Below, piece after piece: positions 1,485 through 53,190 of a stretch of DNA of 64,000 nucleotides. This stretch comes from Thiomicrorhabdus immobilis. GTDB lineage: Bacteria > Pseudomonadota > Gammaproteobacteria > Thiomicrospirales > Thiomicrospiraceae. The notes under the pieces are model-generated. The model was given only the letters and a program-made list of their open reading frames with translations. It was not told the DNA's origin and did no database searches. Both the position numbers and the translations under genes were made by a program. Position 1 is the first letter of the stretch, and every line of letters begins with the position of its first letter. Where the stretch lies: NCBI RefSeq assembly GCF_021654855.1, contig NZ_AP024202.1:372001-436000 (forward strand), read 5' to 3'.

Positions 1485-1500
1485 TTACCAGGCCTGGTAA
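1485..1500. repeat. Perfect 16-bp copy of the ACCAGGCCTGGT palindrome, between cbbQ and cbbO
   Basis: TTACCAGGCCTGGTAA is a perfect 16-bp palindrome. The preceding bases 1477-1482 (CCTGGT) can also pair with ACCAGG inside it, so two alternative hairpins are possible. It sits in the 67-base cbbQ-cbbO gap, where it could act as an mRNA hairpin, but the same word occurs inside genes elsewhere in the window. Confidence 0.85.
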
Positions 1501-1514
1501 GAGAGAATCAACTC

Positions 1515-2333
1515 TTATTCAAAAAATGTATCGACCGTTGTTAATAGGGTATCTAAGATATCGTCATCGTCAGTCAATGGTGTTACCAGTGCCATAGTAC
1601 ATGCTTTCTTAGGATCAACACCTTTATTGATTAACTGTCCTGCGTATACCAATAGACGAGTAGACATACCTTCATCTAGACCATGGCCTTTAAGATTACG
1701 TGAACGCTGTGCAATTTGAACTAGCTTTTCAGCCGTCGCCAAATCAATTCCAGCTTCTTTCGCTACGATATCTGCTTCAATCGCTTCTTCTGGGTAATCA
1801 AAGCGGAATCCACCAAAACGCTGCTTAGTTGATTGTTTTAAATCTTTCATCATTGACTGGTAGCCAGGGTTATACGAGATAACCAACTGGAAGTCAGGGT
1901 GTGCTTCAACTAATTCGCCTTTTTTATCCAAAGGTAAAATGCGACGGTGGTCTGTCAACGGGTGAATAACAACCGTAGTATCTTGACGCGCTTCAACAAC
2001 CTCATCCAAGTAACAGATGGCACCGATACGTGCAGCGACTGTTAAAGGACCATCTTGCCAGCGAGTTCCGTTGATATCGATTAAGAAACGACCGACTAGA
2101 TCCGAGGCAGTCATATCTTCGTTACAGGCAACGGTAATTAATGGCTTATTTAATTTATGCGCCATATATTCAACAAAACGTGATTTACCACAACCTGTCG
2201 GGCCTTTAAGCATAATCGGCATTCTTGATGCATAGCCCGATTCGAACAATTCAACTTCGTCTGCAACTGGGCGATAATAAGGTTCATCTTTAATGATGTA
2301 CTGTGAAGGGTCTATTGCATTGATTTCTGACAT
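1515..2333 (-). CDS. cbbQ: CbbQ, AAA+ (MoxR-type) RuBisCO activase ATPase
   Basis: This 272-residue protein is the ATPase half of the CbbQO RuBisCO activase, which uses ATP to remodel inhibited RuBisCO in the cytoplasm. The Walker A motif GPTGCGKS is at residues 44-51 and the Walker B stretch AICYLDE at about 105-111, as in the MoxR branch of AAA+ proteins; its length is normal for CbbQ. It follows cbbS on the same strand after 262 bases that hold several hairpins, so its expression may be set below that of cbbLS. It is clearly related to the second copy at 8428, but the two differ at many positions, which suggests each copy serves its neighbouring RuBisCO form. Confidence 0.95.
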
Positions 2334-2387
2334 GATCTTTTCTCCGATAACGAGATAATTACAAAAGGATTCAAACTTTTAGATTTA

Positions 2388-2453
2388 TTCACTTTAGTGA
2401 AATGAATAAGTCTAAAGGAATGGGTGGTTAGCCAGTTTCGGGGCCGGCTAACC
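2388..2453. other. Two hairpins in the cbbS-cbbQ gap (cbbQ-proximal)
   Basis: TTCAC/GTGAA pair around TTTA at 2388-2401, inside a longer imperfect stem whose outer arms are CTTTTAGA and TCTAAAG. GGTTAGCC (2426-2433) pairs perfectly with GGCTAACC (2446-2453). Both lie in the untranslated RNA between cbbS and cbbQ. The role is not known; they could protect the cbbLS message from decay or slow the polymerase. Confidence 0.55.
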
Positions 2454-2499
2454 GGTGTTACTAATTGAGGTAAGAATTCAATTTAGTAAACTTGGTTAG

Positions 2500-2531
2500 A
2501 AAAGGCCTAAACTCAATTGTGTAGGCCTTTT
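2500..2531 (-). terminator. Hairpin with T-run after cbbS, probable partial terminator
   Basis: On the minus strand AAAAGGCCTA and TAGGCCTTTT form a perfect 10-bp stem with a 12-base loop, ending in a short T-run. It lies downstream of cbbS and upstream of cbbQ, so it probably lets only part of the transcription through to cbbQO. The stem contains AGGCCT, the core of the window-wide palindrome. Confidence 0.6.
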
Positions 2532-2543
2532 CCGGAATTTGGA

Positions 2544-2573
2544 TGTCACACAAGACTTGCGGCTTGTGTGACA
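2544..2573 (-). other. Perfect 11-bp hairpin just 3' of cbbS
   Basis: TGTCACACAAG (2544-2554) is exactly complementary to CTTGTGTGACA (2563-2573), with an 8-base loop, beginning 22 bases past the cbbS stop codon. There is no T-run, so an RNA-stabilising 3' hairpin for the abundant cbbLS message is more likely than a terminator. Confidence 0.6.
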
Positions 2574-2595
2574 ATTCGTTAATTAACGAGGGATA

Positions 2596-2946
2596 TTACA
2601 TATCACCACGTTTAACTAACATGTTTGCACCTTGAGACTGTGCAAAGTTATCGTAACCGATTAGGCGAACGTGGTTATTTGGGTTCGCTTTGATGCAGTT
2701 ATCAACTTCAGCTAGTACTGCGTCTGCAGAAGTTTCACCGAACATCGGTAATTTCCACATGTACCAGTAGTAGTCTGTAGCACGCTCTGGTTCAGAGTGT
2801 TCGATAGCTGGGTTCCAGCCTTTATCGATAATGTACTGAACTTGAGCTTTGATTTGATCCGCAGACATAGACGGAAGGTAAGAGAAAGTCTCTGCCTTAC
2901 GTGACTTAGGATCTGAAACGCGTGAAGGGTAATCTTGTACACTCAT
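2596..2946 (-). CDS. cbbS: RuBisCO form I small subunit
   Basis: This 116-residue protein is the small subunit that caps the form I RuBisCO L8S8 complex. It has the expected length for bacterial CbbS and the typical order of conserved pieces: an N-terminal [20 protein letters not shown] helix, the [11 protein letters not shown] segment, [12 protein letters not shown], and the C-terminal [11 protein letters not shown]. It starts 23 bases after cbbL, within one operon. No carboxysome shell genes follow; cbbQ does, which points to the cytosolic (non-carboxysomal) form I enzyme. Confidence 0.97.
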
Positions 2947-2969
2947 TGGTATATACTCCTAATTATCAA

Positions 2970-4388
2970 TTACTTATGCTTAACGTCAAGCTTGTCAACT
3001 GTGTCGAATTCGAACTTGATTTCTTTCCAAGTTTCCATAGCGATCTTAAGTTCTGGGCTATCTTTAGCAGCGTTAGTAAGGATGTCTTTACCTTCTTTCT
3101 CAACTTCACGGCCTTCGTTACGAGCTTGTACACAAGCTTCCAACGCAACACGGTTAGCAGCTGCACCAGCAGCGTTACCCCATGGGTGACCTAAAGTACC
3201 ACCACCGAACTGAAGAACAGAGTCATCGCCGAAGATAGTAACAAGAGCAGGCATGTGCCATACGTGGATACCACCAGATGCAACTGGAATAACACCAGGC
3301 ATTGCACCGAAGTCTTGGTCGAACATGATTCCACGTGAACGATCTTCAGGGATGAAAGAATCACGCATGATATCGATCCAACCTAGAGTTGCTTCACGGT
3401 CACCTTCTAACTTACCTACAACTGTACCTGAGTGTAAGTGGTCACCACCAGATAGACGTAGTGCTTTAGTTAAAACACGGAAGTGAATACCGTGGTGTGG
3501 GTTACGGTCGATTACACCGTGCATTGCGCGGTGGATGTGTAACAATAGACCGTTCTTACGGCAGTAGTTAGCAAGACCAGTGTTAGCAGTGAAACCACCA
3601 GTTAGGTAATCGTGCATGATGATTGGCGTACCAATCTCTTTAGCGAATTCAGCACGCTCATACATTTCTTCTGGAGTACCAGCAGTAACGTTCAAGTAGT
3701 GACCTTTTTTCTCACCAGTTTCAGCTTGAGCTTTCTCGATACCTTCCTGACAGAATAGGAAACGATCTCTCCAGCGCATGAATGGCTGTGAAGTTACGTT
3801 TTCATCATCTTTAGTGAAGTCAAGACCACCACGTAGACACTCATATACTGCACGACCGTAGTTCTTAGCAGAAAGACCTAGCTTAGGCTTGATAGTACAA
3901 CCTAACATTGGACGACCATACTTGTCCATTTTGTCACGTTCTACTTGAATACCGTGTGGAGGTCCACCACAAGTCATAACGTATGCTAGTGGGAAACGGA
4001 TATCTTCTAAACGACAAGCACGTAATGCTTTAAATCCGAATACGTTACCAACTAAAGAAGTCATTACAGAAACAACTGAACCTTCTTCAAATAGGTCAAT
4101 TGGGTAAGCAATGAATGCGTAGAAACAAGTATCGTCACCAGGAACATCTTCAATTCTATACGCACGACCTTTATAATAGTCAAGGTCAGTTAACAAGTCA
4201 GTCCATACAGTTGTCCAAGTACCTGTTGAAGATTCTGCCGCAACAGCTGCTGCGATTTCTTCACGTGGTACACCATCCTGTGGAGTTACTTTAAAACATG
4301 CTAGAAAATCTGAGTCTTTTGGCTCGTAATCTGGCATCCAATATGTTTCGCGGTATTCTTTTACACCGGCATTGTAAGTCTTAGCCAT
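2970..4388 (-). CDS. cbbL: RuBisCO form I large subunit
   Basis: The 472-residue catalytic subunit fixes CO2 onto ribulose 1,5-bisphosphate in the Calvin cycle. Visible active-site pieces are TIKPKLGL (165-172, catalytic Lys167), [10 protein letters not shown] (187-196) with the lysine carbamylated in active enzyme at 193 and the Mg ligands Asp195 and Glu196, and the loop-6 region around [10 protein letters not shown]. Length and sequence fit form IA. A ribosome site GAGGTAG lies just before the ATG. The gene heads a minus-strand operon and is divergent from a cbbR gene, the usual layout for CbbR control. Confidence 0.98.
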
Positions 4389-4516
4389 GTTCTACCTCAT
4401 TTAGGGTTAAATAAAACTTAAAAATCTGAAATCGTGTTTGGATTGTTAAACGCCCCGTCGTTTTCAGTTGCTGCCCATGTTATTCAGAAAGTTCTAATCT
4501 GGCAATTCATCAACTC

Positions 4517-4531
4517 TTATGTAAATCATAA
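4517..4531. promoter_or_regulatory. Candidate CbbR (LysR) operator between cbbL and cbbR
   Basis: TTATG-TAAAT-CATAA is a perfect interrupted dyad of the T-N11-A type bound by LysR regulators, in the 204-base divergent region. It lies about 130 bases from the cbbL start and 62 bases from the cbbR start. A TATAAT at 4541-4546 pointing at cbbR lies close by, so binding here could also repress cbbR. The site is inferred from symmetry and position only. Confidence 0.45.
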
Positions 4532-4592
4532 ACAAATGTATATAATAAAAACCCAGAAACTACAAATACTTACAATAGCTATGGTTATTTAA

Positions 4593-5519
4593 ATGCATAA
4601 TTTAAACGTTACAGCCCAGCAAATACGCATCTTTGAAGCGGTTGCTAGAAATCAAAGTTACACAAAAGCAGCTGAAGAATTACATCTTTCACAGCCGGCA
4701 GTTTCTATTCAAGTTAAGCGTCTTGAAGAGAATAATGATGTGAAATTAATTGAAGTTGTCGGTAAAAAATTGTTTTTGACCCGGCCTGGTGAACGTATGT
4801 TCAAGAGTTGCCAGAAGATTTTAGAAGAGCTTCAAGACTTAAACGCACATATTAAATCTGATCAGGCCAGAGTGGATGGCGAGCTTAAGATAGCGGTGGT
4901 GACTCCGGCTAAATATTTTATGCCTTATATATTGAAAGCGTTCTTAAACCGTTTCCCTGATGTCAAACCGGTTATCACGGTTATCAATCGCCGTCGTATC
5001 TTGGATGAACTAAAGCAAAACCAATATGATTTGTCGATCATGGGGCGAGTGCCTGAAAATTTGAATATGGAGGCGTTTGCATTTTTTCAAAATGAATTAG
5101 TGGTCGCGGCACCGCCAAAGCATCATTTATCAAAAGAGAAGAAGATACCTATTCAAGATATTGCCAATGAGCGCTTTTTAATGCGAGAAAAAGGTTCGGG
5201 TATTCGTGATTCAGTCATGGATAGGTTTGAAGAGAATGGTATCCATGTCGAGCCATATATGGAGTTGGGAAGTACTGAAAGTATCAAACAAGCGGTTATG
5301 GCAGGCCTGGGTATCTCTGTTTTGCCGAAACAAGCCATTCGATTGGAAACACGTTATAGACATATAGATGTGTTGGATGTTGAAGGGTTTCCAGTTACCC
5401 GTGATTGGTATGTCGCCAAGATGACTGGTAAGGCATTGACTCCGGCTTCTGAAGCTTTCCTGGATTTTCTAAAGAATGTCGATATCAATAAACTCTTGGT
5501 TATGTCCGATACCCGTTAA
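4593..5519 (+). CDS. cbbR: LysR-family regulator CbbR, divergent from cbbL
   Basis: This 308-residue protein has a LysR N-terminal helix-turn-helix (about residues 8-66, with the signature FEAVARNQSYTKAAEELHLS followed by QPAVSIQVKRLEE) and a C-terminal effector-binding domain. CbbR proteins activate cbb operons in response to metabolites such as NADPH or RuBP. Position divergent from cbbL makes the form I operon its most likely target. The ATG lacks a clear ribosome site; an upstream ATG at 4580 is closed by an immediate stop. A second LysR gene follows after 26 bases, so both are probably on one transcript. Confidence 0.88.
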   Translation: MHNLNVTAQQIRIFEAVARNQSYTKAAEELHLSQPAVSIQVKRLEENNDVKLIEVVGKKLFLTRPGERMFKSCQKILEELQDLNAHIKSDQARVDGELKIAVVTPAKYFMPYILKAFLNRFPDVKPVITVINRRRILDELKQNQYDLSIMGRVPENLNMEAFAFFQNELVVAAPPKHHLSKEKKIPIQDIANERFLMREKGSGIRDSVMDRFEENGIHVEPYMELGSTESIKQAVMAGLGISVLPKQAIRLETRYRHIDVLDVEGFPVTRDWYVAKMTGKALTPASEAFLDFLKNVDINKLLVMSDTR

Positions 5520-5545
5520 TTTCTTGAGTTCTCTTTGGGGGGATT

Positions 5546-6487
5546 ATGCCTGAAAAAATATCTCTACTAGCCAGAAGTGCAACCTTACGACAGCTACAGG
5601 TGTTTGAGAGTATCGCTCGACACAGTAGTTTCTCCAGAGCCGCGGAAGAATTACATCTAACCCAGCCAACCGTGTCTATGCAGGTGAAAAAACTGGTTGA
5701 TTTGTTGGAGACGCCACTATTTGAACAGATTGGCCGAAAAGTCTATCTAACGGATGCGGGTAAGGTCTTATACGATTCAGCAAATGTCATTCTCAATCAA
5801 TTGTCGATAGCTGAGCAAAAGATCAACCACCTCAAAGGTTTTTCTGGAGGCAGTGTCAGTTTGTCGGTTATTTCTACCGCTCAATATTTCGTGCCGAAGG
5901 TGATTCATGAGTTCACCCAATCGTACCCTGATGTCACGGTATTGTTGCGTGTGGGTAATAAAGAGACCTTGTTGGATCGAATTGCAAAAAATGTCGATGA
6001 CTTTTACTTGCTTGGCCAGCCAACCGAAGAACTGAATGTTGAGTCATCTCAGTTAGCGGTCAACCCGTTGGCGTTTGTGGCCAATAGCAATCACCCTTTG
6101 GTTGGTAAAAAACTGAATATAGAAGATTTGGCGGATGAACCCTTTTTGATGCGAGAAACCGGATCCGGGATTCGTTCCCAAGTTGAAAAGGTGTTTCAGG
6201 AGTTTGAATTTCAACCGCAAATTAAAATGGTTTTAGGCGGTAATGAGGCAATCCGTTTAGGGCTGTTGCAAAATTTGGGGATTACAGTGGCTTCGGTTCC
6301 AACGTTAATGGAAGAGATCACCCAAGGAAGAATAAGTATTCTTGATGTTAAGGGGTTTCCAATTAATCGTCATTGGTATTTGGCTTATCCTCGAGGAAAG
6401 GTGCTTTCGATTGCGGCCGAGAAAATGATTGAGCTATTGAGAATCGAGGGTGAGAAGCTGAGTCAAAAAGCCTTTAATGAGTTTTAG
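5546..6487 (+). CDS. cbbR: Second LysR-family CbbR, upstream of cbbM
   Basis: This 313-residue LysR protein has the usual N-terminal helix-turn-helix (about residues 14-72; SIARHSSFSRAAEELHLTQP) and a substrate-binding-like C-terminal domain. It resembles the preceding CbbR along its whole length, which suggests an old tandem duplication. A strong GGGGGGA ribosome site precedes the ATG. It lies directly upstream of cbbM in the same direction, with 258 bases between that hold a dyad and promoter, so control of the form II gene is its likely job. Which regulator controls which operon cannot be settled by sequence alone. Confidence 0.87.
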   Translation: MPEKISLLARSATLRQLQVFESIARHSSFSRAAEELHLTQPTVSMQVKKLVDLLETPLFEQIGRKVYLTDAGKVLYDSANVILNQLSIAEQKINHLKGFSGGSVSLSVISTAQYFVPKVIHEFTQSYPDVTVLLRVGNKETLLDRIAKNVDDFYLLGQPTEELNVESSQLAVNPLAFVANSNHPLVGKKLNIEDLADEPFLMRETGSGIRSQVEKVFQEFEFQPQIKMVLGGNEAIRLGLLQNLGITVASVPTLMEEITQGRISILDVKGFPINRHWYLAYPRGKVLSIAAEKMIELLRIEGEKLSQKAFNEF

Positions 6488-6589
6488 ATAAAATATCATA
6501 AAGTAAATATATTACCGTTTCATGACGTTTCTATTATTGGAATGTTTCAATCAAATTTAAAAATCCTATTGCTTATTATCTATACTAAC

Positions 6590-6633: not shown

Positions 6634-6651
6634 AGCCTCTTGTATTTCGGG

Positions 6652-6691: not shown

Positions 6692-6745
6692 TATACATAA
6701 AGGGTAGTGAATTTAGTCACAAGCCCCAAAATTGAGGTAAGAAAA

Positions 6746-8125
6746 ATGGATCAGTCTAATCGTTATGCTGACTTGTCTTTGAAAGAAGAAGATCTGATTG
6801 CAGGTCAAAACCACATTCTTGTGGCTTATACAATGGAACCAGCTGCTGGTTACGGTTACCTAGAAGTTGCAGCTCACATTGCTGCTGAATCTTCAACTGG
6901 TACTAACGTTGAAGTATGTACTACTGATGATTTCACTAAAGGTGTTGATGCGATGGTTTATCACATCGATGAAGCTGAAGGCATCATGAAAGTTGCATAC
7001 CCGTTCGATCTTTTCGACCGTAACGGTATCGATGGTAAGACTATGATCGTTTCTTTCCTTACTCTTGCTATTGGTAACAACCAAGGTATGGGTGATGTTA
7101 AAAACCTTCAGATGTTTGACTTCTGGGTTCCAGAAACTAAATTACACCTATTTGACTGCCCAGCAGTAGATATCTCTAACATGTGGAAAATGCTAGGTCG
7201 TCCACAAGAGAACGGTGGTTATATCGCTGGTACTATCATCAAGCCTAAGTTAGGTCTACGTCCTGAGCCATTTGCTGACGCAGCATACCAGTTCTGGCTA
7301 GGTGGTGACTTCATCAAGAACGATGAGCCACAAGGTAACCAAACTTTCTGTCCAATGAAAAAAGTTATCCCATTAGTTGTTGACGCGATGAACCGTGCTC
7401 AAGATGAAACTGGTGAAGCGAAGCTTTTCTCAGCTAACATCACTGCAGACGATCACCACGAAATGTGCTACCGTGCAGACTACATCCTAGAAGCTTTCGG
7501 ACCTAACGCTCCACAAGTTGCTTTCCTAGTTGATGGTTATGTTGGTGGTCCAGGTATGATTACTACTGCTCGTCGTAACTACGCTTCTCAGTACCTACAC
7601 TATCACCGTGCAGGTCACGGAGCGATTACTTCTCCTTCTGCTAAGCGTGGTTATACTGCTTTCGTTCTTGCTAAGATCTCTCGTCTACAGGGTGCTTCTG
7701 GTATCCACGTGGGTACAATGGGCTTCGGTAAGATGGAAGGTGGTGCAGACGACCGTAACATCGCATACATGATCGAACGTGATGAAGCTCAAGGTCCAGC
7801 ATTCTACCAGAAGTGGAACGGCACTAAGCCTACTACTCCTATCATCTCTGGTGGTATGAACGCTCTACGTCTACCTGGTTTCTTCGAAAACCTAGGTCAC
7901 GGTAACGTAATCAACACTTCTGGTGGTGGTTCTTACGGTCACATCGATTCTCCAGCTGCTGGTGCTAAGTCTTTGGCTCAAGCATATGACTGCTGGAAGT
8001 CTGGTGCAGACCCAATCGAATATGCTAAAGAGCATAACGAATTTGCACGTGCGTTCGAATCTTTCCCTGGTGATGCAGATAAAATCTACCCAGGTTGGAG
8101 AGAGAAATTAGGTGTTCATAAATAA
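6746..8125 (+). CDS. cbbM: RuBisCO form II
   Basis: Form II RuBisCO works without a small subunit and suits high CO2 and low O2. From the ATG at 6746 the protein has 459 residues and begins [18 protein letters not shown], the family's usual N-terminus. With this start, IIKPK puts catalytic Lys166 and FIKNDE puts the carbamylated Lys191, Asp193 and Glu194 at the numbers used for the Rhodospirillum rubrum enzyme. A GTG at 6707 in the same frame is therefore rejected; GAGG at 6734-6737 serves the ATG. Codon use is that of a very highly expressed gene. cbbQ2 and cbbO2 follow beyond a terminator. Confidence 0.98.
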
Positions 8126-8262: not shown

Positions 8263-8282
8263 TGAGATAGTGTGAATACTTT

Positions 8283-11667: not shown

Positions 11668-12072
11668 ATGACAAATAAAATTAGTGTACAGATGGTGTTT
11701 CACTTTAAGGGTGAGGAGCATAACCTTTCAGCCGATATTAAATTGCCTTTGCATATTGGCGACATGACGGCTTTTTATTATGCATTACCACGCAGAATCG
11801 CCGAGCGTAATGGCGTGGATACCTACTCTTATATGTTTGACATGATGGAGAGCTGCCCAATAGAAGTGGTTGCGGCTGAAGGTTATGTGGCGCGTTTTTT
11901 AGAAAACGGTCCAATTTCCATGGATGAATTTGTACAGGCCTGTAATGAGGTCACGCCTGAAATGCTGATGGCGGACATTGCTCTACGTGTGCAAGATGGT
12001 ACAGATTTATCATTAGAATCCGCTCTGTTATTAGCTTATCAAATCGGAGTTTCGCAAGGCGAATCGGATTAA
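11668..12072 (+). CDS. Unrecognised 134-residue protein downstream of cbbO2
   Basis: I do not recognise this family. The protein is acidic and soluble, with no signal peptide, Cys cluster or nucleotide-binding motif. It begins MTNKISVQMVFHFKGEEH, suggesting beta strands, followed by a helical half ending LLAYQIGVSQGESD. It has a ribosome site (AAGGTG) 11 bases after cbbO2 and a strong terminator behind it, so it is the last gene of cbbQ2-cbbO2. Position suggests a link to form II RuBisCO activation or assembly, but this is inference. TACAGGCCTGTA, a variant of the window palindrome, lies inside it at 11933. Confidence 0.75.
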   Translation: MTNKISVQMVFHFKGEEHNLSADIKLPLHIGDMTAFYYALPRRIAERNGVDTYSYMFDMMESCPIEVVAAEGYVARFLENGPISMDEFVQACNEVTPEMLMADIALRVQDGTDLSLESALLLAYQIGVSQGESD

Positions 12073-13080: not shown

Positions 13081-13782
13081 ATGAAGTTACTGCTTGTTGA
13101 GGATGAACCTCTGTTGGTCGAGAACCTTGAGAGTCGCTTTAAGCGGTTAGGTTATATTGTAGATAGTGCCTTAGATGGAGAGCAGGGGCTTTATCTCGCT
13201 TTAGAGCATGACTATGATTTGATTATTTTAGATTTGGGTCTGCCAAAACTACCAGGCCTGGTTGTTTTAGAAAAAATTCGCCAAGCTCAGAAAACGCTGC
13301 CTATTCTGGTCTTAACAGCACGTAACTCTTGGCAGGAACGGGTTGAGGGATTGAAAAAGGGGGCGGATGACTATTTGGGCAAGCCGTTTCATTTTGAAGA
13401 GCTGCATGCACGTATAGAAAGTCTGGCAAAACGACATCAGCCAAAAGATTCCACTATCTGTTTTCATCCGACACATCTCGCCGGTTTACAATCCGTCTGT
13501 TTAGACACCGAGGCAAAATCGTTACAAATCAATGAAACTGTCCAGCTGTTGACAGCCACGGAATTCCATCTGTTGGTTCCTCTGTTTAGCCACCCTAAAC
13601 AAATATTTTCCAAACACGCTTTGCTTGAAAAAATCTCCGATAGCACACAGGAAAAAGATGAAAACCTCATCGAGGTCTATATCCGTCGTCTACGCGGTTA
13701 TTTAGGTAAAGAGTCAATTCAAACCTTAAGGGGACAAGGCTATCGATTGACCTTGTCCGACACCGTTGAGGTCAACAAATGA
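13081..13782 (+). CDS. OmpR/PhoP-family response regulator
   Basis: This 233-residue protein has a receiver domain with acidic pocket Glu7-Asp8, phosphorylation site Asp51 (ILDLGLP), Thr79 and Lys101, followed by a winged-helix DNA-binding domain ending RGQGYRL. Its end overlaps the histidine kinase start by four bases (ATGA), so they are translationally coupled. The following operon encodes an RND efflux system, so it most likely senses and answers to a metal or another toxic compound. An exact 11-bp tandem repeat at 15177 is a plausible target. A full ACCAGGCCTGGT lies in the coding sequence at 13251. Confidence 0.93.
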   Translation: MKLLLVEDEPLLVENLESRFKRLGYIVDSALDGEQGLYLALEHDYDLIILDLGLPKLPGLVVLEKIRQAQKTLPILVLTARNSWQERVEGLKKGADDYLGKPFHFEELHARIESLAKRHQPKDSTICFHPTHLAGLQSVCLDTEAKSLQINETVQLLTATEFHLLVPLFSHPKQIFSKHALLEKISDSTQEKDENLIEVYIRRLRGYLGKESIQTLRGQGYRLTLSDTVEVNK

Positions 13783-15239: not shown

Positions 15240-16442
15240 ATGAAAAACATTCATGCATATCGTCTTATTGGTCTGCTTTCAGCAGGCTTGGTATTCAGTT
15301 TCCCCGCACAAGCCAAAACCTATGCCGAGCTATTGCAAAACGTTCAGCAACAGCAACCAGAACAAGCTGCCTTACAATCCTATGGTGAATTGGAAACTAC
15401 CGTGAGTCAGAGTGCGGACAGTTGGTTTGCGGGTAATGCGAATTTAGTGGTCGCCCATGAGAATGATGCTTTGACCGGTGATTTGCAAAAGCAAAAATGG
15501 CATATTGGTGCGGAAATGCCATTATGGTTGCCGGGTCAGGCACAAAGCCAACAAAATTTAGCGCGAGGTTTGGCCGATTTAAATAGTTACCAGGCCTGGT
15601 ATCTCAAATGGCAAGCTTCGGGTCAGTTGCGTGACTTGGTTTGGCAATATCAAGAAAGCCAAGTCAAAGCGGATATCGCCGAGCAATCGGTGGCACAGGC
15701 ACAACAACTTAATGACTTGATTGCTACCTTGGTCAAGGTGGGAGAGAAACCAAAGATCGATGCGCTTTTAGCGGATAAAGCCTTATTGAATGCGCAGGCA
15801 CAACGCTTGAACTTACAAAGCATGCTCGAATCCAACCGCCAGCAATATCAATACTGGACCAACACTCAAGAGTTGCCGAGCCCATTGACAGAAACCATTG
15901 CTAAAGTGGATTTGCAAAAGCATCCAGAACTGAACCGGTTGAAAGCGCAATTGGCGGTATTGGGTGCCGAGTACCAAACAGCTAAAGCGACCGAAAAAGA
16001 TAATCCGACCTTCTCATTCGGTGGCTTTCAGGAAGAAGACAAGGCGACCAGCGCCAATAACTCCCTTTACGCGCAAATCACCTATCCTTTAGGTAGTAGC
16101 CCACTTAAAAAAGTGGAAACCGCAAAGCAAAGAACCGCGTTTTTAGAAAAACAGGCGGAAGTGAAACGTTATCAGATGGTGTTAGAGAACCAACTAAAAA
16201 AGGCTAAACAGCAGATTAGCCTTGCACAGCAAAAACTCTCATTAATGCAGCAAGAGTTACAAATTGCGACACAAACCTTGCAGCTTGCCACTCAGGCCTA
16301 TAAAGCCGGTGAAAGTAATATCCAAACCTTGGTGAATGCCCAACAGGACTTTTTAAACAGCAAGTTGCAACAGTCCTTGACCGAAATTGAATTGAATAAA
16401 GCCATTGCTCAACATAATCAAATTGCAGGAGACTCTCTATAA
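15240..16442 (+). CDS. TolC-family outer membrane efflux protein (CusC/CzcC-like)
   Basis: The 400-residue protein has a signal peptide (hydrophobic stretch about 8-22, cleavage after PAQA near 25) and two long alpha-helical repeats typical of TolC-type outer membrane channels; residues about 290-365 form a strongly heptad-like coiled coil. It is shorter than classical TolC but in the range of metal-efflux relatives. It starts a TolC-adaptor-RND operon; its stop overlaps the adaptor start (TAATG). A full ACCAGGCCTGGT lies inside it at 15589. Confidence 0.88.
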   Translation: MKNIHAYRLIGLLSAGLVFSFPAQAKTYAELLQNVQQQQPEQAALQSYGELETTVSQSADSWFAGNANLVVAHENDALTGDLQKQKWHIGAEMPLWLPGQAQSQQNLARGLADLNSYQAWYLKWQASGQLRDLVWQYQESQVKADIAEQSVAQAQQLNDLIATLVKVGEKPKIDALLADKALLNAQAQRLNLQSMLESNRQQYQYWTNTQELPSPLTETIAKVDLQKHPELNRLKAQLAVLGAEYQTAKATEKDNPTFSFGGFQEEDKATSANNSLYAQITYPLGSSPLKKVETAKQRTAFLEKQAEVKRYQMVLENQLKKAKQQISLAQQKLSLMQQELQIATQTLQLATQAYKAGESNIQTLVNAQQDFLNSKLQQSLTEIELNKAIAQHNQIAGDSL

Positions 16443-21017: not shown

Positions 21018-21054
21018 AACCAAATCTTAAAGTCAAACATTAAAGCCAAATGAA

Positions 21055-21096
21055 CAGGCCTGGTCGCTTTTAAAAGTAACCAGGCCTGGTTGTTTT
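21055..21096 (+). terminator. Terminator built from two copies of the window palindrome
   Basis: CAGGCCTGGT (21055-21064) pairs with ACCAGGCCTG (21079-21088) around a 14-base loop containing TTTTAAAA, and is followed by GTTGTTTT. It ends the RND operon. The second arm belongs to a full ACCAGGCCTGGT at 21079-21090, and the first is an 11-of-12 copy, so two members of the repeat family form the stem. Confidence 0.75.
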
Positions 21097-21170: not shown

Positions 21171-21848
21171 TTAGATAAAGCCTGGAATCTCAATAAGAGT
21201 CTTTGACGGAGAAAAGGGAATATGAAAGATTGGCAGCGTAGTCCATTTGTCTAGGTCTTTTGCATGATTCTTCTCAGCAGAGAAATTCAAGATAATCGCA
21301 TGGGTTTGTAGCCCGGCTTGTTCAATCGCGGCTAAGGTTAACAGCGTATGGTTGATACAACCTAGTTGGTTTTTTACCACCAAAATGACAGGCAAATCTA
21401 AGGCTGTCGCCAAATCTTTATTTAAACCATCCGAACATAATGGAGAATAAAACCCCCCAGCACCTTCAACCATTAAAATTTCATTAGCTTGTAACGTTTG
21501 GGCAGGTTGGCAGGCCTGTACTAAATCTACAGTCGATATGACCAGGCCTGCTTGTTGTATGGCGGTTTGAGGAGAAATAGGCGGTTCAAATTGATTAGGA
21601 CAAATGCTTTGCAATGATTCGTTTGATTGGCAGGATTGCTGTAAGAAAAGTGCATCTTCGCACAATAAGCTGCCATCGGCTTGCTTGATACAGCCTGAAG
21701 CAATGGGTTTACGTGGTGTAACCCGGTAACCCTGTTGGATTAAGGTATGGGCTACACAACCTGCAATATAGGTTTTTCCCACATCGGTATCGGTACCCGT
21801 AATAAAAAAACCACCAGGCCTGGTGGTTTTATTTGGTGAATCATTCAT
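21171..21848 (-). CDS. bioD: Dethiobiotin synthase
   Basis: This 225-residue enzyme closes the ureido ring of dethiobiotin with CO2 and ATP in biotin synthesis. The P-loop GTDTDVGKT lies at about residues 18-26 and VEGAGGFYSP further on is the second family signature. Its N-terminal extension of about ten residues before FFITG is encoded by a 24-bp palindrome (21807-21830). It starts six bases after purC and is the last gene of a minus-strand group; bioA is 15 kb away. The gene holds three copies or partial copies of the palindrome, an exceptional density. Confidence 0.94.
   Translation of the reverse strand: MNDSPNKTTRPGGFFITGTDTDVGKTYIAGCVAHTLIQQGYRVTPRKPIASGCIKQADGSLLCEDALFLQQSCQSNESLQSICPNQFEPPISPQTAIQQAGLVISTVDLVQACQPAQTLQANEILMVEGAGGFYSPLCSDGLNKDLATALDLPVILVVKNQLGCINHTLLTLAAIEQAGLQTHAIILNFSAEKNHAKDLDKWTTLPIFHIPFSPSKTLIEIPGFI
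21807..21830. repeat. 24-bp perfect palindrome inside the bioD start region
   Basis: Left half AAAACCACCAGG and right half CCTGGTGGTTTT are exact reverse complements, with ACCAGGCCTGGT at the centre (21813-21824). It lies 18 bases inside bioD and encodes the KTTRPGGF part of the N-terminal extension. Confidence 0.85.
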
Positions 21849-25229: not shown

Positions 25230-26734
25230 TGAGCAATGAACATTTTGCCAACCTCGCAAATCAAGGTTATACCCGTGCGCCTTTAATGCGCACGGTGCTA
25301 TCTGACTATGATACGCCGTTGAGCGTTTACCATAAGTTAGCAAAAGGACCGTATTCCTATCTATTTGAATCCGTTCAAGGTGGTGATAAATGGGGGCGTT
25401 ATTCCATTATCGGTTTGCCGTGCCAGACACGTATTCAAATTAAAGGTAATCAAATACAAGAGATTTGTGACGGTGAGGTGCTGCAACATCAAGTGGCAGA
25501 GGATCCGCTTGCTTGGGTAGAAGCCTATCAAAACCAGTTTAAAGTCTATAACCAACCAGGCCTGCCCGCTTTTAGCGGCGGTTTAGTCGGTTATTTTGGT
25601 TATGACACGGTACGTTATGTAGAAGAGCGTCTAAAAAACTCGACACCGCAAAAAGACGATATCGGTGCACCAGATATCGAATTATTGGTTTCTGAAGAGC
25701 TGGTGGTTTTCGATAATTTAAGTGGTCAGGTGCATGTGATTGTGCATGCCGATTTATCTAAGCCCTGTGCATATACTCAAGCCAGTACACGTCTAGATGA
25801 ACTCCAGGCATTGCTAAGTTCACCTATGCCGATGCCGGTTGATGTGGCGAGCGCCGACGTGTTGACGGAAGCCGATTTTGTCTCAAGTTTCGGTGAAGAG
25901 CCATTTAAAGCGGCGGTCGCTAAAATCAAAGAGTATATTTTGGCCGGAGATGCCATGCAGGTGGTCATCTCTCAACAGATGTCGGTTGATTATATCGGTG
26001 CGCCTATCGATTTATACCGTGCCTTACGTTATCTGAATCCATCGCCGTATATGTTTTTTGTGGATATGGGCGATTTGCAGATTGTCGGCTCTTCCCCCGA
26101 GATTTTAGTGCGTCTGGAAGACAATCAAGTGACGGTTCGTCCTATTGCGGGAACGCGCCGCCGCGGTGTCACGCCTGAAAAAGATAAGGCGTTGGAAGAG
26201 GAGTTGTTAAACGATCCGAAAGAGTTGGCGGAACATCTGATGCTGATTGACTTAGGTCGTAATGATGTGGGGCGCATCGCCCAGGTCGGTTCGGTTGAAC
26301 TCACTGAAAAAATGGTGGTGGAGCGTTACTCACATGTTATGCATATTGTGTCTAACGTCAATGCGCAAGCTAAACCAGGAATGAGTGCGATGGATGTTTT
26401 ACGCGCGACTTTCCCTGCAGGAACGGTTTCAGGCGCACCTAAAGTCCGTGCGATGGAAATTATTGACGAGTTGGAGCCGGTTAAACGTGGTATTTACGCT
26501 GGCGCGGTGGGCTATCTTGGCTGGCATGGCAATATGGATACCGCCATCGCAATCCGTACCGCGGTGATTAAAGACAATAAGCTTTTTGTGCAAGCTGGTG
26601 CGGGTGTCGTCGCCGATTCGGTTCCACAGTTAGAGTGGGATGAAACCATGAATAAGGGCCGAGCCATTTTTAGAGCGGCACAGTTTGTGACCGAAGGTTT
26701 ACAAACCCATAACCCAGACCCCGGTCATAAGTAA
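25229..26734 (+). CDS. trpE: Anthranilate synthase component I
   Basis: The 501-residue large subunit turns chorismate into anthranilate with ammonia from TrpG. ATG 25229 ([19 protein letters not shown]) is preferred to an upstream in-frame start at 25187. The chorismate-binding domain shows the typical [25 protein letters not shown] segment, the [10 protein letters not shown] loop and [11 protein letters not shown]. It follows gph and precedes trpG by 61 bases. A partial palindrome copy, ACCAGGCCTG, is at 25555. Confidence 0.95.
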
Positions 26735-27385: not shown

Positions 27386-27401
27386 TTACCAGGCCTGGTA
27401 A
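27386..27401. repeat. 16-bp palindrome between trpG and trpD
   Basis: TTACCAGGCCTGGTAA, identical to the copy at 1485-1500, begins two bases after the trpG stop and lies 12 bases before the trpD ribosome site. It can form a short hairpin in the trpGD message. Confidence 0.85.
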
Positions 27402-29844: not shown

Positions 29845-29919
29845 ACCAGGCCTGGCATGCCCTGTGACCAACTCAAGTTTGTGAGCATAGGGTAACTATT
29901 TGGTTATCAGGCCTTTTTT
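29845..29919 (+). terminator. Probable terminator after trpC using palindrome halves
   Basis: AGGCCTG (29848-29854, in an 11-of-12 copy of the palindrome) can pair with CAGGCCT (29908-29914), followed by TTTTT. The loop of 53 bases has its own CCCT/AGGG pairing. The large loop makes this less certain than the others. Confidence 0.5.
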
Positions 29920-37205: not shown

Positions 37206-38521
37206 CACAGATTATTTTGGGCTAAAGTCTGTATGACTGAATTGACCAGGCCTGCTGATAATTGTTCGAGTTGTCGTTGCGGAATATTATAGGCTGGCAT
37301 GGTATAGATCAGCTTGCCAAAAGGCCTTAACCAAACGCCTTGCTCTAATGCCGCCGCTTGAATTTTTGCGCCTAAATCGTCACGTTCCAACTCCACCACC
37401 CCGATGGCTCCCAGGGTACGAACATCGGCGACTCCGTTTACCTTTTTGAGTTCGGCCAAGCTTTCTGTTAAGTGGTCGTATATACGTTGGATATTGTCTT
37501 GCCAAGGTGAGTCTAATAAGACATCAATATTGGCAATGGCGGCACGGCAGGCCAATGGATTGGCCATATAGGTTGGTCCATGTGCAAGAATGCCAGGGTT
37601 GCCGTTACTGATGGTTTCACTGATTCTGCTGGTCGCTAAGGTCGCCGCTAAAGTGATATGACCACCCGTTAAGGTTTTGCCTAAGGTCAGTATGTCTGGC
37701 GAAATGCCCGCCCATTCGCAGGCAAACAATTTTCCAGTGCGTCCAAAGCCGGTCGCGATTTCATCGGCAATCAGTAAAACTTCAAATTCGTCACATAATT
37801 CACGCAGTTGTTTTAAATAGTTGGGGCGATAGAAACGCATGCCTCCCGCACCCTGCACGATTGGTTCAATGGTGACGGCCGCTATCTCATTATGATGTTG
37901 TTCGAGTATCGATTTAAGTCCGGCAATGTCTTGATTGTCAGAAGGCTCTGAAAACCCCATTTGGGGGGCCGGAGCAAAAAAGTGTTTGCTCAATACATCG
38001 CTGAATAGATGGTGCATACCGTTTATAGGGTCGCATATCGCCATGGTGGCGAAGGTATCGCCGTGATAACCGTTTCTTACAGTCAGTAATTTATTCTTGG
38101 CAGGCCTGGTTAAACTTATCCAATATTGAATAGCCATCTTGATGGCCACTTCCATTGCAACCGAACCCGAATCGACAAAAAAGACTTTGTCCAGGCCTGT
38201 TGGAGATAGGTCTACCAGGCGTTTAGCAAGTTCTATGGCCGGTTCATGGGTAAGACCGCCAAACATGATATGAGGCATGGTATCAATCTGCTCATGCATC
38301 GCTTGTTGGATTTTTGGATGGTTGTAGCCGTGTAAAGCCGCCCACCATGATGACATGCCATCTACCACTTCTCGACCATCGGCCAAGGTAATGATTGAGC
38401 CTTGGGTTCTTATAACGCCAATGGCTTCAATAGGATTTGGCAATTTAGCATAGGGGTGCCAAATATGTTCACGATCATATTCCAGTAAGGCATTCCAATT
38501 AGGGGTGTGAGACGGGTTCAT
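37205..38521 (-). CDS. bioA: Adenosylmethionine-8-amino-7-oxononanoate aminotransferase
   Basis: This 438-residue PLP aminotransferase makes 7,8-diaminopelargonate in biotin synthesis, the step before BioD. It shows WHPYAKL, the DGMSSWWAALHGYNHP segment, NGYHGDTFATMA, IADEIATGFGRTG and the PLP lysine in LTLGKTLTGG. It is not clustered with bioD (15 kb away) and no bioF, bioC or bioB is in the window. Four full or partial copies of the window palindrome lie in or beside it. Confidence 0.96.
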   Translation of the reverse strand: MNPSHTPNWNALLEYDREHIWHPYAKLPNPIEAIGVIRTQGSIITLADGREVVDGMSSWWAALHGYNHPKIQQAMHEQIDTMPHIMFGGLTHEPAIELAKRLVDLSPTGLDKVFFVDSGSVAMEVAIKMAIQYWISLTRPAKNKLLTVRNGYHGDTFATMAICDPINGMHHLFSDVLSKHFFAPAPQMGFSEPSDNQDIAGLKSILEQHHNEIAAVTIEPIVQGAGGMRFYRPNYLKQLRELCDEFEVLLIADEIATGFGRTGKLFACEWAGISPDILTLGKTLTGGHITLAATLATSRISETISNGNPGILAHGPTYMANPLACRAAIANIDVLLDSPWQDNIQRIYDHLTESLAELKKVNGVADVRTLGAIGVVELERDDLGAKIQAAALEQGVWLRPFGKLIYTMPAYNIPQRQLEQLSAGLVNSVIQTLAQNNL

Positions 38522-38569: not shown

Positions 38570-38581
38570 ACCAGGCCTGGT
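38570..38581. repeat. Exact ACCAGGCCTGGT between bioA and truC
   Basis: A full 12-bp palindrome in the 63-base gap, four bases from the truC stop codon. It may act as a weak hairpin; no T-run follows on the minus strand. Confidence 0.85.
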
Positions 38582-44221: not shown

Positions 44222-44593
44222 ATGTCTGTATCACAAAATGATATTTTAGAAGCAGTTGCAGCTATGTCTGTAATGGAAGTTGTAGAATTAGTTTCTGCAA
44301 TGGAAGAGAAATTTGGTGTATCAGCGGCAGCTATGGTTGCTTCTGGTCCTGCTGGCGATGCTGGTGCGGCTGCTGAAGAGCAAACTGAATTCGACGTAAT
44401 CCTAACTGGTGCTGGTGCTAACAAAGTAGCAGCTATCAAAGCGGTTCGTGGAGCTACTGGTTTAGGTCTTAAAGAAGCTAAAGAAGCTGTAGAAAGCGCT
44501 CCTTTCACTTTGAAAGAAGGTGTTTCTAAAGAAGAAGCTGAAGCATTAGCTAACGAGCTAAAAGAAGCTGGTATCGAAGTAGAAGTTAAGTAA
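44222..44593 (+). CDS. rplL: Ribosomal protein L7/L12
   Basis: The 123-residue acidic stalk protein has the N-terminal dimerisation helix, an Ala/Gly-rich hinge (about 38-52) and the C-terminal [19 protein letters not shown] factor-binding helix. GGAG precedes the start. Confidence 0.98.
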
Positions 44594-48825: not shown

Positions 48826-51800
48826 ATGAAAGATTTATTAGGATTTCTAAAAAAACAAAACGTATCAAGTGACTTTGATGCGATTAAGGTATCACTTGCT
48901 TCACCAGAGAAAATCCGTTCTTGGTCTTATGGCGAAGTAAAAAAGCCTGAGACAATTAACTATCGTACGTTCAAGCCAGAACGTGACGGTCTTTTCTGTG
49001 CAAAAATCTTTGGGCCGATTCGTGATTTTGAATGTTTGTGTGGTAAATACAAGCGTCTTAAGCACCGTGGTGTAATTTGTGAGAAGTGTGGTGTTGAGGT
49101 AACTCAATCAAAAGTACGTCGTGAGCGTATGGGTCATATTGATCTTGCCACTTCTGTTGCACATATCTGGTTCTTGAAGTCTCTACCATCACGTATCGGT
49201 TTGATGTTGGATATGACATTAAAAGAGATTGAAGCGGTTCTTTACTTTGAAGCGTTCATGGTTGTTGATCCAGGCTTAACTCCACTTGAACCTTGGCAGT
49301 TGCTGACTGAAGAAGAATACCTTGATGCTATGGATGAGCACGGTGACGAGTTTGAAGCTCAAATGGGTGCTGAAGCAATCAAGAAAATGCTTCAGGCTAT
49401 CGATTTGGAAGGTGAAGCAGAGCGTCTACGTGTTGAAATCGATAGTACTAATTCTGAAACAAAGCAGAAGAAGATTTCTAAGCGTCTTAAATTAATTGAG
49501 TCTTTTGTTCAGTCAGGTAATAAGCCTGAATGGATGATTTTAGATGTACTTCCTGTATTACCGCCTGAGTTACGTCCTTTAGTACCTCTTGACGGTGGTC
49601 GTTTTGCAACTTCGGACTTAAACGATTTATACCGTCGTGTAATCAACCGTAACAACCGTTTAAAACGTCTATTAGATTTGATGGCTCCAGATATCATCGT
49701 ACGTAACGAAAAACGTATGTTGCAAGAGTCAGTGGACTCTCTATTGGATAACGGTCGTCGTGGACGTGCTGTAACTGGGACGAACAAGCGTCAGCTTAAA
49801 TCTCTTGCAGACATGATTAAAGGTAAGCAAGGTCGTTTCCGTCAGAACTTACTTGGTAAGCGTGTTGACTATTCTGGTCGTTCTGTAATCGTAGTTGGTC
49901 CATCTCTACGTCTGCATCAGTGTGGTCTTCCTAAGAAGATGGCTCTTGAACTGTTCAAGCCGTTTATCTTCAGCAAGCTTCAGAAGCGTGGTGTTGCTCC
50001 AACAATCAAAGCGGCTAAGAAAATGGTAGAGCAAGGACTTCCAGAGGTGTGGGATGTTCTTGATGAAGTAATCCGTGAGCATCCGGTTCTGTTGAACCGT
50101 GCTCCAACACTTCACCGTTTAGGTATCCAGGCGTTTGAACCGGTATTGATCGAAGGTAAAGCGATCAACCTACACCCGTTAGTATGTTCTGCATTCAACG
50201 CCGACTTCGATGGTGACCAAATGGCGGTACACGTACCATTGTCATTAGAAGCTCAGCTTGAAGCACGTACATTGATGATGTCTACAAACAACTTGTTATC
50301 ACCAGCTAATGGTGATCCTATCATCGTTCCTTCTCAGGACGTTGTATTAGGTTTGTATTACATCACTCGTGAGCGTATCAACTCTATCGGTGAAGGTAAG
50401 GCCTTTGCTAACTGGCAAGAAGTTCAGCGTGCAATTGACGCTAAAACAGTGCATTTACACACTAAGATCAAATTACGTATTGTTGAAACCGTAATTGATG
50501 ATGAAGGTGTTGAAAGTGTATCAAGCCGTATTGTAGATACTACGGCTGGTCGTGCGTTGCTTTCTAGAATCCTGCCTAAAGGGTTAAGTTATGATTTATT
50601 GAACTTAAATCTAACCAAGAAAAATATCAGTACGGTATTAAATACTTGTTACCGTGTTTTAGGTCCTAAAGAAACGGTAATTTTTGCTGACCAACTAATG
50701 TACGCTGGTTTCAAATGGTCGACATTAGCAGGCCTATCTTTCTGTTCGGATGATATGTTGATTCCTGATTCAAAGGCTGGAATCATCGAACGTGCAGAAG
50801 CTCAGGTTGAAGAGATTCAAGGTCAGTTCTCTCAAGGTTTGGTAACTGAAGGTGAGCGCTACAACAAAGTTGTTGATATTTGGTCTCACACCAATGAACT
50901 TGTTACCAAGTCGATGATGGAAGAGTTACAGTTTGAAACTGTTACAGATGCAGAAGGAAACGAAGTTCAGCAAACCTCATTCAACTCTGTTTACATGATG
51001 GCCGACTCTGGTGCTCGTGGATCGGTAGCACAGATGCGTCAGCTTGGTGGTATGCGTGGTCTTATGGCAAAACCAGATGGTTCTATCATCGAGACACCGA
51101 TTACAGCAAACTTCCGTGAAGGTTTGAACGTACTTCAGTACTTCATCTCTACACACGGTGCGCGTAAAGGTTTGGCGGATACAGCGCTTAAAACAGCTAA
51201 CTCTGGTTACCTGACGCGTCGTCTAGTTGATGTTGCTCAGGATGTGGTTGTGACTGAACATGATTGCGGTACAGATTCTGGTATTCGTATGACAGCCCAT
51301 GTTGAAGGTGGTGATATCATCGAGTCTTTGAAAGATCGTGTATTAGGTCGTATCACAAATCAAGATGTCGTATCTCAGTCAGGTGAATTAATTGTTGCGA
51401 AAGGACAGTTGATCGATGAAAAAGTTGCGAATCAAATCGATGAAAGTGGTGTTGATCACGTAGATGTTCGTTCTCCAATGACTTGTGAAACTAAGTTTGG
51501 TATCTGTCAGCAGTGTTATGGTCGTGATTTGGCGCGTGGACACTTGGTGAATATGGGTGAAGCCGTTGGTGTTATGGCTGCTCAGTCAATCGGTGAGCCG
51601 GGTACTCAGTTAACCATGCGTACGTTCCATATCGGTGGTACGGCATCTGGTTCTGCAGCGCAAAGCCAAATTGAGGTTAAGCATGCTGGTAAGATCAAGT
51701 GGGATAACCTAAAAGCGATTAAGAACTCTGATAACCAAATTATCGTCACTTCACGTTCTGGTGAGGTATCGGTGATTGATGAAGCGGGTCGTGAACAAGA

Positions 51801-53049
51801 GCGTTATAAGATTGCATACGGAACCACACTTAATGTAAGTGATGGTGGTTCAATTACTGCAGGCGATATTCTTGCTCAATGGGATCCGCATACTCACCCA
51901 GTTATCACGGAAGCGGCTGGTAGCATTGCATTCGGTAACTTCGAAGGTACGGTAGAAGAACGTGTCGATGAGTTGACTGGTTTAACAACTCGTGTTGTTA
52001 AAGATGCTAAAGAGCGTATGTCTTCAGTTAAAGAGACACGTCCTTATATCGCATTGGTTGATGAGGCGGGTGAAGCTATTTGCTTTACCGGTACTCAGAC
52101 TCCAGCACTTTACTACCTACCAGAAAACAGTATTGTTGTTGTTCAAGAAGGTAGCAAGGTTGGTGCCGGTGACGTATTAGCACGTATTCCGCAAGCGTCA
52201 TCGAAGAACAAAGATATTACCGGGGGTCTACCTCGAGTCGCTGACTTGTTTGAAGCGCGTCAACCAAAAGAGCCTTCAATCATGGCAGAAGTATCTGGTG
52301 TGGTAGGTTTCGGTAAAGAAACAAAAGGTAAGCAGCGTTTAGTCATCACTCAAGATAGTGGTGAACAATATGAAGCACTTATCCCTAAATGGCGTACGGT
52401 TTCAGTCTTTGAAGGTGAGCGTGTTGAGCGTGGTGATGTGGTTGTAGATGGTAATCCAAATCCACACGACATCCTACGATTATTAGGTATTGAAAAATTA
52501 GCAGAATACATTGTTGACGAAGTGCAGGATGTTTACCGTTTACAAGGTGTAAAAATCAACGATAAACACATCGAAACAATTGTTCGTCAAATGCTAAGAA
52601 AAGTTGAAGTTAAATCTTCAGGTGATACTGGTTTGATCAAAGGTGAGCAAACTGAGTACGCTAAAGTATTAGAGTTAAATGAAAAGGCTCGTGAAGAAGG
52701 TAAAGTGGAAGCAAGTTATGAACGTGTTCTTCTTGGTATCACTAAAGCTTCACTTGCAACTGAATCATTTATCTCAGCAGCGTCCTTCCAAGAAACAACT
52801 CGTGTATTAACCGAAGCTGCGGTAAGTGGTAAACGTGATACCTTGGTTGGTTTGAAAGAGAACGTAATTGTTGGTCGTCTGATTCCAGCTGGTACAGGTT
52901 TTGCCTATCACCAAGCGCGAAAAGCGGCGAGCGAAAAATCACAGGTTGAGTTGCAAGCATTTATGGGTGCAACTGAGTCTGGGGATGTTCAGCAACCAGA
53001 AGAATCTGTTGTTGAAACAGTAAATGAAGGTGAAGGGGTTGAAGCCTAA
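48826..53049 (+). CDS. rpoC: RNA polymerase beta' subunit
   Basis: The 1407-residue subunit has the N-terminal zinc site ([13 protein letters not shown] then CEKCG), the catalytic Mg motif NADFDGDQM, the bridge/trigger region ([25 protein letters not shown]) and the second Cys cluster [15 protein letters not shown]. It starts directly after the rpoB stop. An acidic tail closes the protein. Confidence 0.98.
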
Positions 53050-53075
53050 TTTAAATAAATTCAAGTAGTTAATGC

Positions 53076-53104
53076 TTGACTTATTGACTTTAGGTCTCTA
53101 AAAT
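53076..53104 (+). promoter_or_regulatory. Promoter of the str operon
   Basis: TTGACT (53076-53081), a 17-base spacer and TAAAAT (53099-53104) lie just past rpoC and drive rpsL-rpsG-fusA-tuf. In its leader, CTGGTAA (53126-53132) and TTACCAG (53134-53140) form a small palindrome overlapping ACCAGGCCTG (53136-53145). Confidence 0.75.
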
Positions 53105-53190
53105 CCTCTTTCCTAATTTGTGGGTCTGGTAATTTACCAGGCCTGCACTTTCGTATATGTAAGAGTTAATCTCAAATTTGGAGAATATTA

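Follow-up and report, generated by a model that had tools for sequence, protein, structure and literature searches.

What is a single palindromic 12-mer, ACCAGGCCTGGT, doing at so many places in and between the genes of one stretch of the Thiomicrorhabdus immobilis chromosome? The stretch, referred to here as the window, spans 64,000 nts and corresponds to bases 372001-436000 of a one-contig genome of 2,539,444 bp, designated G000. A first-pass annotation of the window had listed seven exact copies of the word, and all were found at starts 1487, 13251, 15589, 21079, 21813, 27388 and 38570. It had also listed 12 shorter members, 11 of which contain the core octamer CAGGCCTG; the remaining one, at 28331 (TAGGCCTGG), lacks the core. 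The window total is 19 cores, including one at 11933 that was absent from that list. When up to two mismatches to ACCAGGCCTGGT were allowed, 19 matches were found in the window, against a mean of 1.5 and a maximum of 4 in 100 dinucleotide shuffles.

Abundance and distribution in the genome

The exact word occurs 446 times in the whole of G000 and its reversal, used as a control, does not occur at all; the core occurs 812 times and its reversed control seven times. These counts correspond to densities of about 176 12-mers and 320 cores per Mb. A 616-kb sample of the genome, consisting of 20 spread 20-kb stretches, one contiguous run and the window, holds 109 copies of the word where an order-3 Markov model predicts 0.07, and the excess is not restricted to the window. 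Beyond the family of G000, at most five copies per genome were found in 365 other genomes of the class sample.

Each of the 20 spread stretches has between one and seven copies (variance/mean 0.70), and the spacing of the first 100 copies in the genome is near random (coefficient of variation, CV, 0.92). Across these 20 stretches there was no copy gap at the change of sign in GC skew and no visible bias towards the origin (ori) or terminus (ter) of replication. A concentration of copies between 13 and 39 kb of the window had been remarked on in the first-pass annotation, but as all of the sampled stretches carry copies this reflects local scatter, and a real local cluster is ruled out by the even genome-wide spread. 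The ribosomal block is indeed poor in copies, as had been described, with one core (53136) and one two-mismatch match (43455) in 40-64 kb.

Conservation in a sibling species

The word was compared between G000 and its sibling G009 (TrpD 90%) over 180 kb aligned at 78% identity. The aligned segment contains 42 G000 copies, of which 30 are fully alignable, and 22 of these 30 are letter-perfect in G009 while their flanks are 69% identical. By comparison, neighbouring 12-mers were conserved in 175 of 5152 cases (3.4%), and random 12-mers in 9.7%. The reverse direction gave a similar picture, with 20 of 27 alignable G009 copies identical in G000 (48 G009 copies lie in the segment), and sites having the core only kept it in 13 of 22 alignable cases, against 18% of neighbouring 8-mers. 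The letters of ACCAGGCCTGGT are kept, through selection or directional replacement.

Five of the eight non-identical orthologues differ in letters only, and three have alignment gaps, two of which amount to a single edge letter. Copies arise and decay through point mutation rather than insertion, as is found for uptake signals. An origin as transposed or copied repeats was rejected, as the copies have no common sequence past a flank preference (20 positions) and the orthologues differ mostly by letters.

Anatomy of the site and its genomic context

Genes and gaps were assigned in the 616-kb sample from a home-made gene call, in which 88.8% of bases are coding. The 109 copies divide into 51 in genes and 58 between genes, in agreement with the earlier statement that copies lie in both and are not simply terminators. 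Density is highest in convergent gaps (2.27 per kb), followed by tandem gaps (0.70) and divergent gaps (0.20), based on the 52 copies with a called gene on both sides, and is about 0.09 per kb within genes, where 51 copies fall in roughly 547 kb of coding sequence. Divergent, promoter-side gaps are therefore the poorest gap class, yet they are not below genes. The coding copies are read as PGL (24), QAW (21) or TRPG (6).

Copies with one mismatch, pooled over strand-symmetric pairs of positions, vary mostly at the outer letters; 20 fall at position 1 and 23 at position 2 (43 together), compared to 0, 5, 2 and 0 at positions 3 to 6 (seven in total). Flanks were profiled over 20 positions with both strands read together, which forces the profile to be symmetric. 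A pyrimidine (C or T) occupies position -2 in 88% of the coding copies and 96% of those between genes, and A is found at positions -4 and -5 in 61-73% of the G000 copies. The flanks of single copies were also examined for complementarity, which for coding copies was observed (and expected) in 21 (20.9) at -2, 31 (24.0) at -4 and 28 (21.3) at -5, and for intergenic copies in 36 (29.2) at -2, 27 (17.8) at -1 and 22 (14.9) at -3. Because the coding and intergenic copies have a common flank preference, the pattern fits a strict core with A/T flanks bound by a protein better than it fits a hairpin, although some copies extend the palindrome. A protein-binding site had been offered earlier as one alternative, and the flanking A/T motif and the conservation are in keeping with it.

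Words across the family

The TrpD neighbours of G000, and the form I and form II RubisCO encoded within the window (family matches), suggest that it is one of the sulfur oxidisers in the Thiomicrospira/Hydrogenovibrio/Thiomicrorhabdus group. By TrpD the closest named relatives (84-87%) carry the labels Thiomicrospira sp. WV30_bin5, Thiotrichales bacterium ZodW_maxbin.150 and Hydrogenovibrio sp. UBA650, and Thiomicrorhabdus metagenome-assembled genomes (MAGs) are at 79-80%. In 58 genomes of this group the core count is bimodal, with 409-1133 copies of CAGGCCTG in 30 genomes and 0-74 in 28. The outer letters differ by genome, being AACAGGCCTGTT in G005, A(G/C/A)CAGGCCTG in G036, NCCAGGCCTGGN in G043 and G055, and AGCAGGCCTGCT in L184.

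Two further words were found. ACCGGCCGGT has 1025 copies in G044 and no more than 15 in each of the other 57 genomes; the non-palindromic TGCCAGGYTGGG has 219 copies in G046, 236 in G049 and 264 in G052, and no more than three in any of the other 55. The full word in G049 is AAAATCTGCCAGGTTGGGG, whose A-tract, C and CCAGG are spaced as in the half site of G000. TGCCAGGYTGGG is about equally frequent on both strands in its three genomes (in G049, 106 to 130 genome-wide; 6 to 6 in 80 kb), and six of the 12 copies in 80 kb of G049 form facing pairs. No genome is rich in two of the three word classes, and 24 of the 58 are rich in none. Scans of k-mers in G053, G003 and G028 (80 kb each) and G064 (40 kb) gave no iterated word of this kind, and the three known cores are not enriched in 100 kb of each of the first three or in 60 kb of G064.

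Intermediate counts were seen in a few genomes. G041, G004 and genus g14 (G026, G031 and G034) have 62-74 copies of CAGGCCTG against 7-31 of the reversed control, which may be decaying remnants or an effect of composition. G053 and G063 each have 15 copies of ACCGGCCGGT against 2-3 of the control, possible traces of the G044 dialect; G053 is the sister of G044 in a six-protein tree. This tree was built with FastTree from 25 taxa including two outgroups, and some of its nodes are weakly supported. In it ACCAGGCCTGGT is found in several lineages, the deepest of the branches sampled included, with the other words and the losses nested.

Copies in the window and at matching places in relatives

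The exact and near copies located in the window are as follows.

1487..1498, exact ACCAGGCCTGGT, intergenic, 3' of the minus-strand open reading frame (ORF) 1515-2333 (AAA-type ATPase, weak matches)
13251..13262, exact ACCAGGCCTGGT, within a response-regulator gene
15589..15600, exact ACCAGGCCTGGT, within a TolC-like gene
21053..21064, near copy AACAGGCCTGGT (one mismatch), beside the exact copy at 21079
21079..21090, exact ACCAGGCCTGGT, convergent gap between the RND-efflux side and bioD
21541..21552, near copy ACCAGGCCTGCT, in bioD
21813..21824, exact ACCAGGCCTGGT, within bioD
25555..25566, near copy ACCAGGCCTGCC, in trpE
27388..27399, exact ACCAGGCCTGGT, trpG-trpD gap
29845..29856, near copy ACCAGGCCTGGC, 3' of trpC
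37245..37256, near copy ACCAGGCCTGCT, in bioA
38099..38110, near copy GGCAGGCCTGGT, in bioA
38190..38201, near copy TCCAGGCCTGTT, in bioA
38570..38581, exact ACCAGGCCTGGT, gap between truC (3' side) and bioA (5' side)
53136..53147, near copy ACCAGGCCTGCA, between ORF 48826-53049 and ORF 53191-53565, the sole core in 40-64 kb

Several of these places are also occupied in relatives. A core lies at about the place matching 21813 in bioD in G009, G047, G058, G056, G010 and L184 (as AGCAGGCCTGCT), and at about the place matching 25555 in trpE in G047, G005, G061, G036 and G010. The trpG-trpD gap is occupied in G058, G062, L184 and G044 (as ACCGGCCGGT).

The surroundings of trpD were compared in 23 loci, namely the window, 20 fetched stretches and two MAG loci (the named loci L183 and L186-L262 fall outside this set). 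In 16 of the 19 signal-bearing loci the gap just 3' of trpD carries the local word: ACCAGGCCTGGT in G009, G047, G056, G022, G061 and G033; CAGGCCTG variants in G005, G036, G043, G055, G010, G002 and L184; ACCGGCCGGT in G044; CCCAGCCTGGCA in G046; and CCCAACCTGGCA in G049. The other three, G000, G058 and G062, have no word 3' of trpD and carry a copy in the trpG-trpD gap instead. No such word was found 3' of trpD in the signal-less G003, G053, G028 and G064. Since it is the local word that this place holds in 16 of the 19 loci, and no word in the signal-less ones, the different words appear to be dialects belonging to a single system.

The RubisCO form I/form II genes of the window are at 2970-4388 on the minus strand and 6707-8125 on the plus strand, with a gene for a CbbR-like regulator at 4593-5519 between them.

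A possible self-DNA mark

The iterated strict core, the A/T flanks, the dialects nested in the tree, the mutational origin and the losses match the uptake signal sequences (USS) of Pasteurellaceae and the DNA uptake sequences (DUS) of Neisseriaceae. On these grounds the palindrome may be the core of a similar mark of self-DNA, unusual in being palindromic, a reading to which we give an even chance. A sequence-specific DNA-binding protein, putatively a member of the type IV pilus or competence machinery, would recognise a site of about 20-24 bp (A/T-tract, Y, ACC-A-GGCC-T-GGT, R, T/A-tract). DNA bearing the word would be preferentially taken up and recombined, so that copies made by point mutation would accumulate and persist. 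Should the specificity of the reader drift, all copies would drift along with it and dialects would be produced; should specific reading be lost, the copies would decay. We infer the reading protein, its role in DNA uptake and the drive from the pattern of the copies.

Competence machinery was surveyed family-wide through ComEC (PF03772), which was matched in all 34 word-bearing genomes and in 20 of the 24 others. The four genomes without a match, G064 and G034 (both 99% complete), G004 (92%) and G039 (84%), are all rich in none of the three words. This distribution is suggestive but weak support for an uptake function. The hundreds of copies present in G000 (446 exact and 812 cores in 2.54 Mb), far above chance, are also as seen for uptake signals.

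The comparison with known systems shows both likenesses and differences. A USS consists of an inner core needed for uptake together with AT-rich segments (PMC7811141; this and the other papers are cited from excerpts of their text). Like the USS of Pasteurellaceae (AAGTGCGGT / ACAAGCGGT), the word has a conserved inner core, tolerant outer letters and A/T flanks; unlike it, most of the dialects here are perfect palindromes, whereas the USS is asymmetric and more abundant, with 1,465 9-bp cores in H. influenzae (PMC7811141). Clade-specific USSs, AT flanks and a mutational origin are described for the Pasteurellaceae (PMC1626085). The family-wide dialects with a common core recall the DUS of Neisseriaceae, which follow the phylogeny and have no obvious counterpart in five genomes of that family; DUS are present in 943-5918 copies per genome (PMC3630211). 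The DUS receptor, ComP, is known (PMC3868556), while for the word described here no receptor was found.

Taken further, the data would describe a third, independently evolved uptake-signal system outside the Pasteurellaceae and Neisseriaceae, palindromic and with a receptor that is two-fold symmetric or two-headed. In it, palindromic words of varying length and non-palindromic words based on one common half site would have replaced one another across whole genomes, and the dialects, the losses and one very different word would be the traces of this in a single family of free-living sulfur oxidisers. This fuller account is put forward tentatively, as its chances appear a little short of even. 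Two bacterial families are described as strongly preferring self-DNA that carries a sequence mark (PMC7811141), and a third case, in chemolithoautotrophs, would mean that self-DNA marks arise repeatedly outside host-associated bacteria. As related species have different words or none at the same places, gain, switch and loss of the word and the change of its reader would become directly testable.

Evidence weighing against an uptake signal

A number of observations count against this proposal. DUS words are asymmetric and we know of no uptake signal that is palindromic; the word in G000 is a palindrome, and asymmetric words were found only in G046, G049 and G052. For this reason, and because no uptake test is known, the word is not filed as a plain member of either the DUS or the USS. 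The excess complementarity of the flanks makes a hairpin role possible for some copies. The 812 cores in 2.54 Mb are also fewer than the about 1900 DUS per genome of Neisseria (PMC3630211).

Literature searches, with most subscription journals outside their coverage, gave no uptake or competence experiment for the Thiomicrospira/Hydrogenovibrio/Thiomicrorhabdus family; with the same coverage, no paper was found on uptake sequences in Thiomicrospira, Hydrogenovibrio or Piscirickettsiaceae, or on highly iterated palindromes in Gammaproteobacteria, and broader searches had nothing on the word among the entries listed. The excerpted text of a Hydrogenovibrio genome paper is silent on it (PMC6501319). 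The receptor was not found either. A scan for the N-methyl motif PF07963 gave pilin-like genes in all of eight genomes, signal-less ones included, and PF12019 (GspH) was matched weakly in three of the 58 genomes. The two of these three loci that were read resemble clusters for type II secretion pseudopilins (gene order by eye), and the PF12019 search did not point to a receptor. A motif scan for a pilin in the sampled stretches of G000 had one match, at window position 44251, which is unlike a pilin.

The distribution on mobile or foreign DNA gives a mixed picture. There is no clear depletion in stretches of at least 2 kb that the aligned G009 segment lacks; their 44 kb hold 6 copies and 13 cores, compared to 36 and 60 in 192 kb. 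On the second contig of G058 (443 kb) the density is near-chromosomal, with 5 copies in a 40-kb sample compared to 9 in 60 kb. For G061, 20 kb of the second contig (97 kb) gave 2 copies and 60 kb of the main contig 26. The word was also found in viral contigs L266 (3 copies in 11.0 kb) and L270 (2 in 7.7 kb); these came from a motif search that gave 6 matches in a viral collection, and genes were read in these two. They are phage contigs (terminase, portal and primase; tape measure and head proteins), likely of phages of this Thiomicrospira-group family.

Other explanations

Since no receptor was found, the stretches missing from G009 are not clearly poor in copies, and phages and the G058 contig carry the word, a dimeric chromosomal protein stays a serious rival, the strongest of those considered, although we consider it unlikely. 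The palindrome would be the dimer site of a chromosome-organising or nucleoid-associated protein, the A/T flanks would provide minor-groove contacts, and selection on chromosome structure would keep the copies. A perfect palindrome with A/T flanks, evenly spread (variance/mean 0.70 in the 20 stretches), strongly conserved between G000 and G009, not clearly depleted in islands and carried by two phage contigs would suit such a protein. Whole-genome switching of words, including to a non-palindromic one, and loss in close relatives would be odd for an architectural protein, and neither ori/ter bias nor regular spacing is visible (CV 0.92). SlmA/MatP-type sites are palindromic protein sites scattered on the chromosome in tens of copies with a strong ori/ter bias; the word resembles them as a scattered palindrome but differs in its hundreds of copies and in having no visible bias of this kind. 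Were the reader chromosomal, the word would be an example of a highly iterated palindrome in the absence of both tested methylase families (see below), which would weaken the idea that methylation makes such words.

An element at transcript 3' ends, either a terminator hairpin or a roadblock, would account for the density in convergent gaps (2.27 per kb against about 0.09 in coding sequence), the facing pairs in G049 and the lower mean folding energy of the intergenic copies (-10.9, against -7.8 with shuffled flanks). It is nevertheless improbable. By itself the 12-mer has a folding energy of only -2.0 kcal/mol, genes contain 51 of the 109 copies, copies lie inside the trp cluster, and only 14 of the 58 intergenic copies extend by at least three pairs, of which four also have a T-rich tail. 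This analysis of folding and T-tails rules out terminators as a general explanation.

A site related to recombination or restriction, whether Chi-like or a cut site protected by a modification such as phosphorothioation, is just as improbable, despite the iterated GC-rich octamer core. A Chi-type site must be directional, whereas the word is palindromic and its non-palindromic dialect is about equally frequent on both strands. GGCC is a phosphorothioation motif, but it is absent from the TGCCAGGYTGGG dialect (Dnd genes were not searched).

The production of the word by methylation-biased mismatch repair is the weakest of these explanations and very improbable, and the Dcm-type origin raised in the first-pass annotation was not supported. 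The likeness to HIP1 that it had pointed out did hold, as the word is found genome-wide, within and between genes, its near-misses vary at the outer letters, and different words are used by other species. HIP1 and the alternate highly iterated palindromes (HIPs) of cyanobacteria are likewise GC-rich palindromes, replaced by other words in relatives and varying in their outer letters (Elhai 2015, PMC4390886), which speaks for a methylation origin here. Unlike the word, HIPs are accompanied by a methyltransferase that reads part of them and reach about 500-2500 copies per Mb, above the roughly 176 12-mers and 320 cores of G000 (PMC4390886). The A/T flanks and the non-palindromic dialect, which lacks GGCC in all three of its genomes, are not described for HIPs in the excerpted text (PMC4390886), and methylation leaves both unexplained.

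Neither PF00145 (C5-cytosine methylases, to which Dcm belongs) nor PF01555 (N4/N6) is matched in G000; Vsr, Dam-type and type I enzymes were not searched. Neither family tracks the word. PF00145 was matched in 9 of the 30 core-bearing genomes (one below the curated cut-off) and 12 of the 28 others, and PF01555 in 11 of 30 (two below the cut-off) and 11 of 28 (one below). Both are missing from 13 of the 30 core-bearing genomes, in which other methylase families were not searched: G000, G036, G050, G056, G062, G010, G022, G029, G048, G054, G033, G038 and G057 (G010 and G054 are incomplete). G044 and G046 also match neither. Within the two families searched, the methylation model is left without an engine because these 13 genomes, together with G044 and G046, match neither methylase family. 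The 1.8-Mb genome G040 has nine PF00145 segments on six contigs, yet no copy of CAGGCCTG.

A repeat of a different kind was seen in locus L032 (bases 130001-150000 of G000), where fourteen near-identical tandem units, 402 bp apart, occupy about 1013-6239 on the minus strand and probably form one long gene for a repetitive protein.

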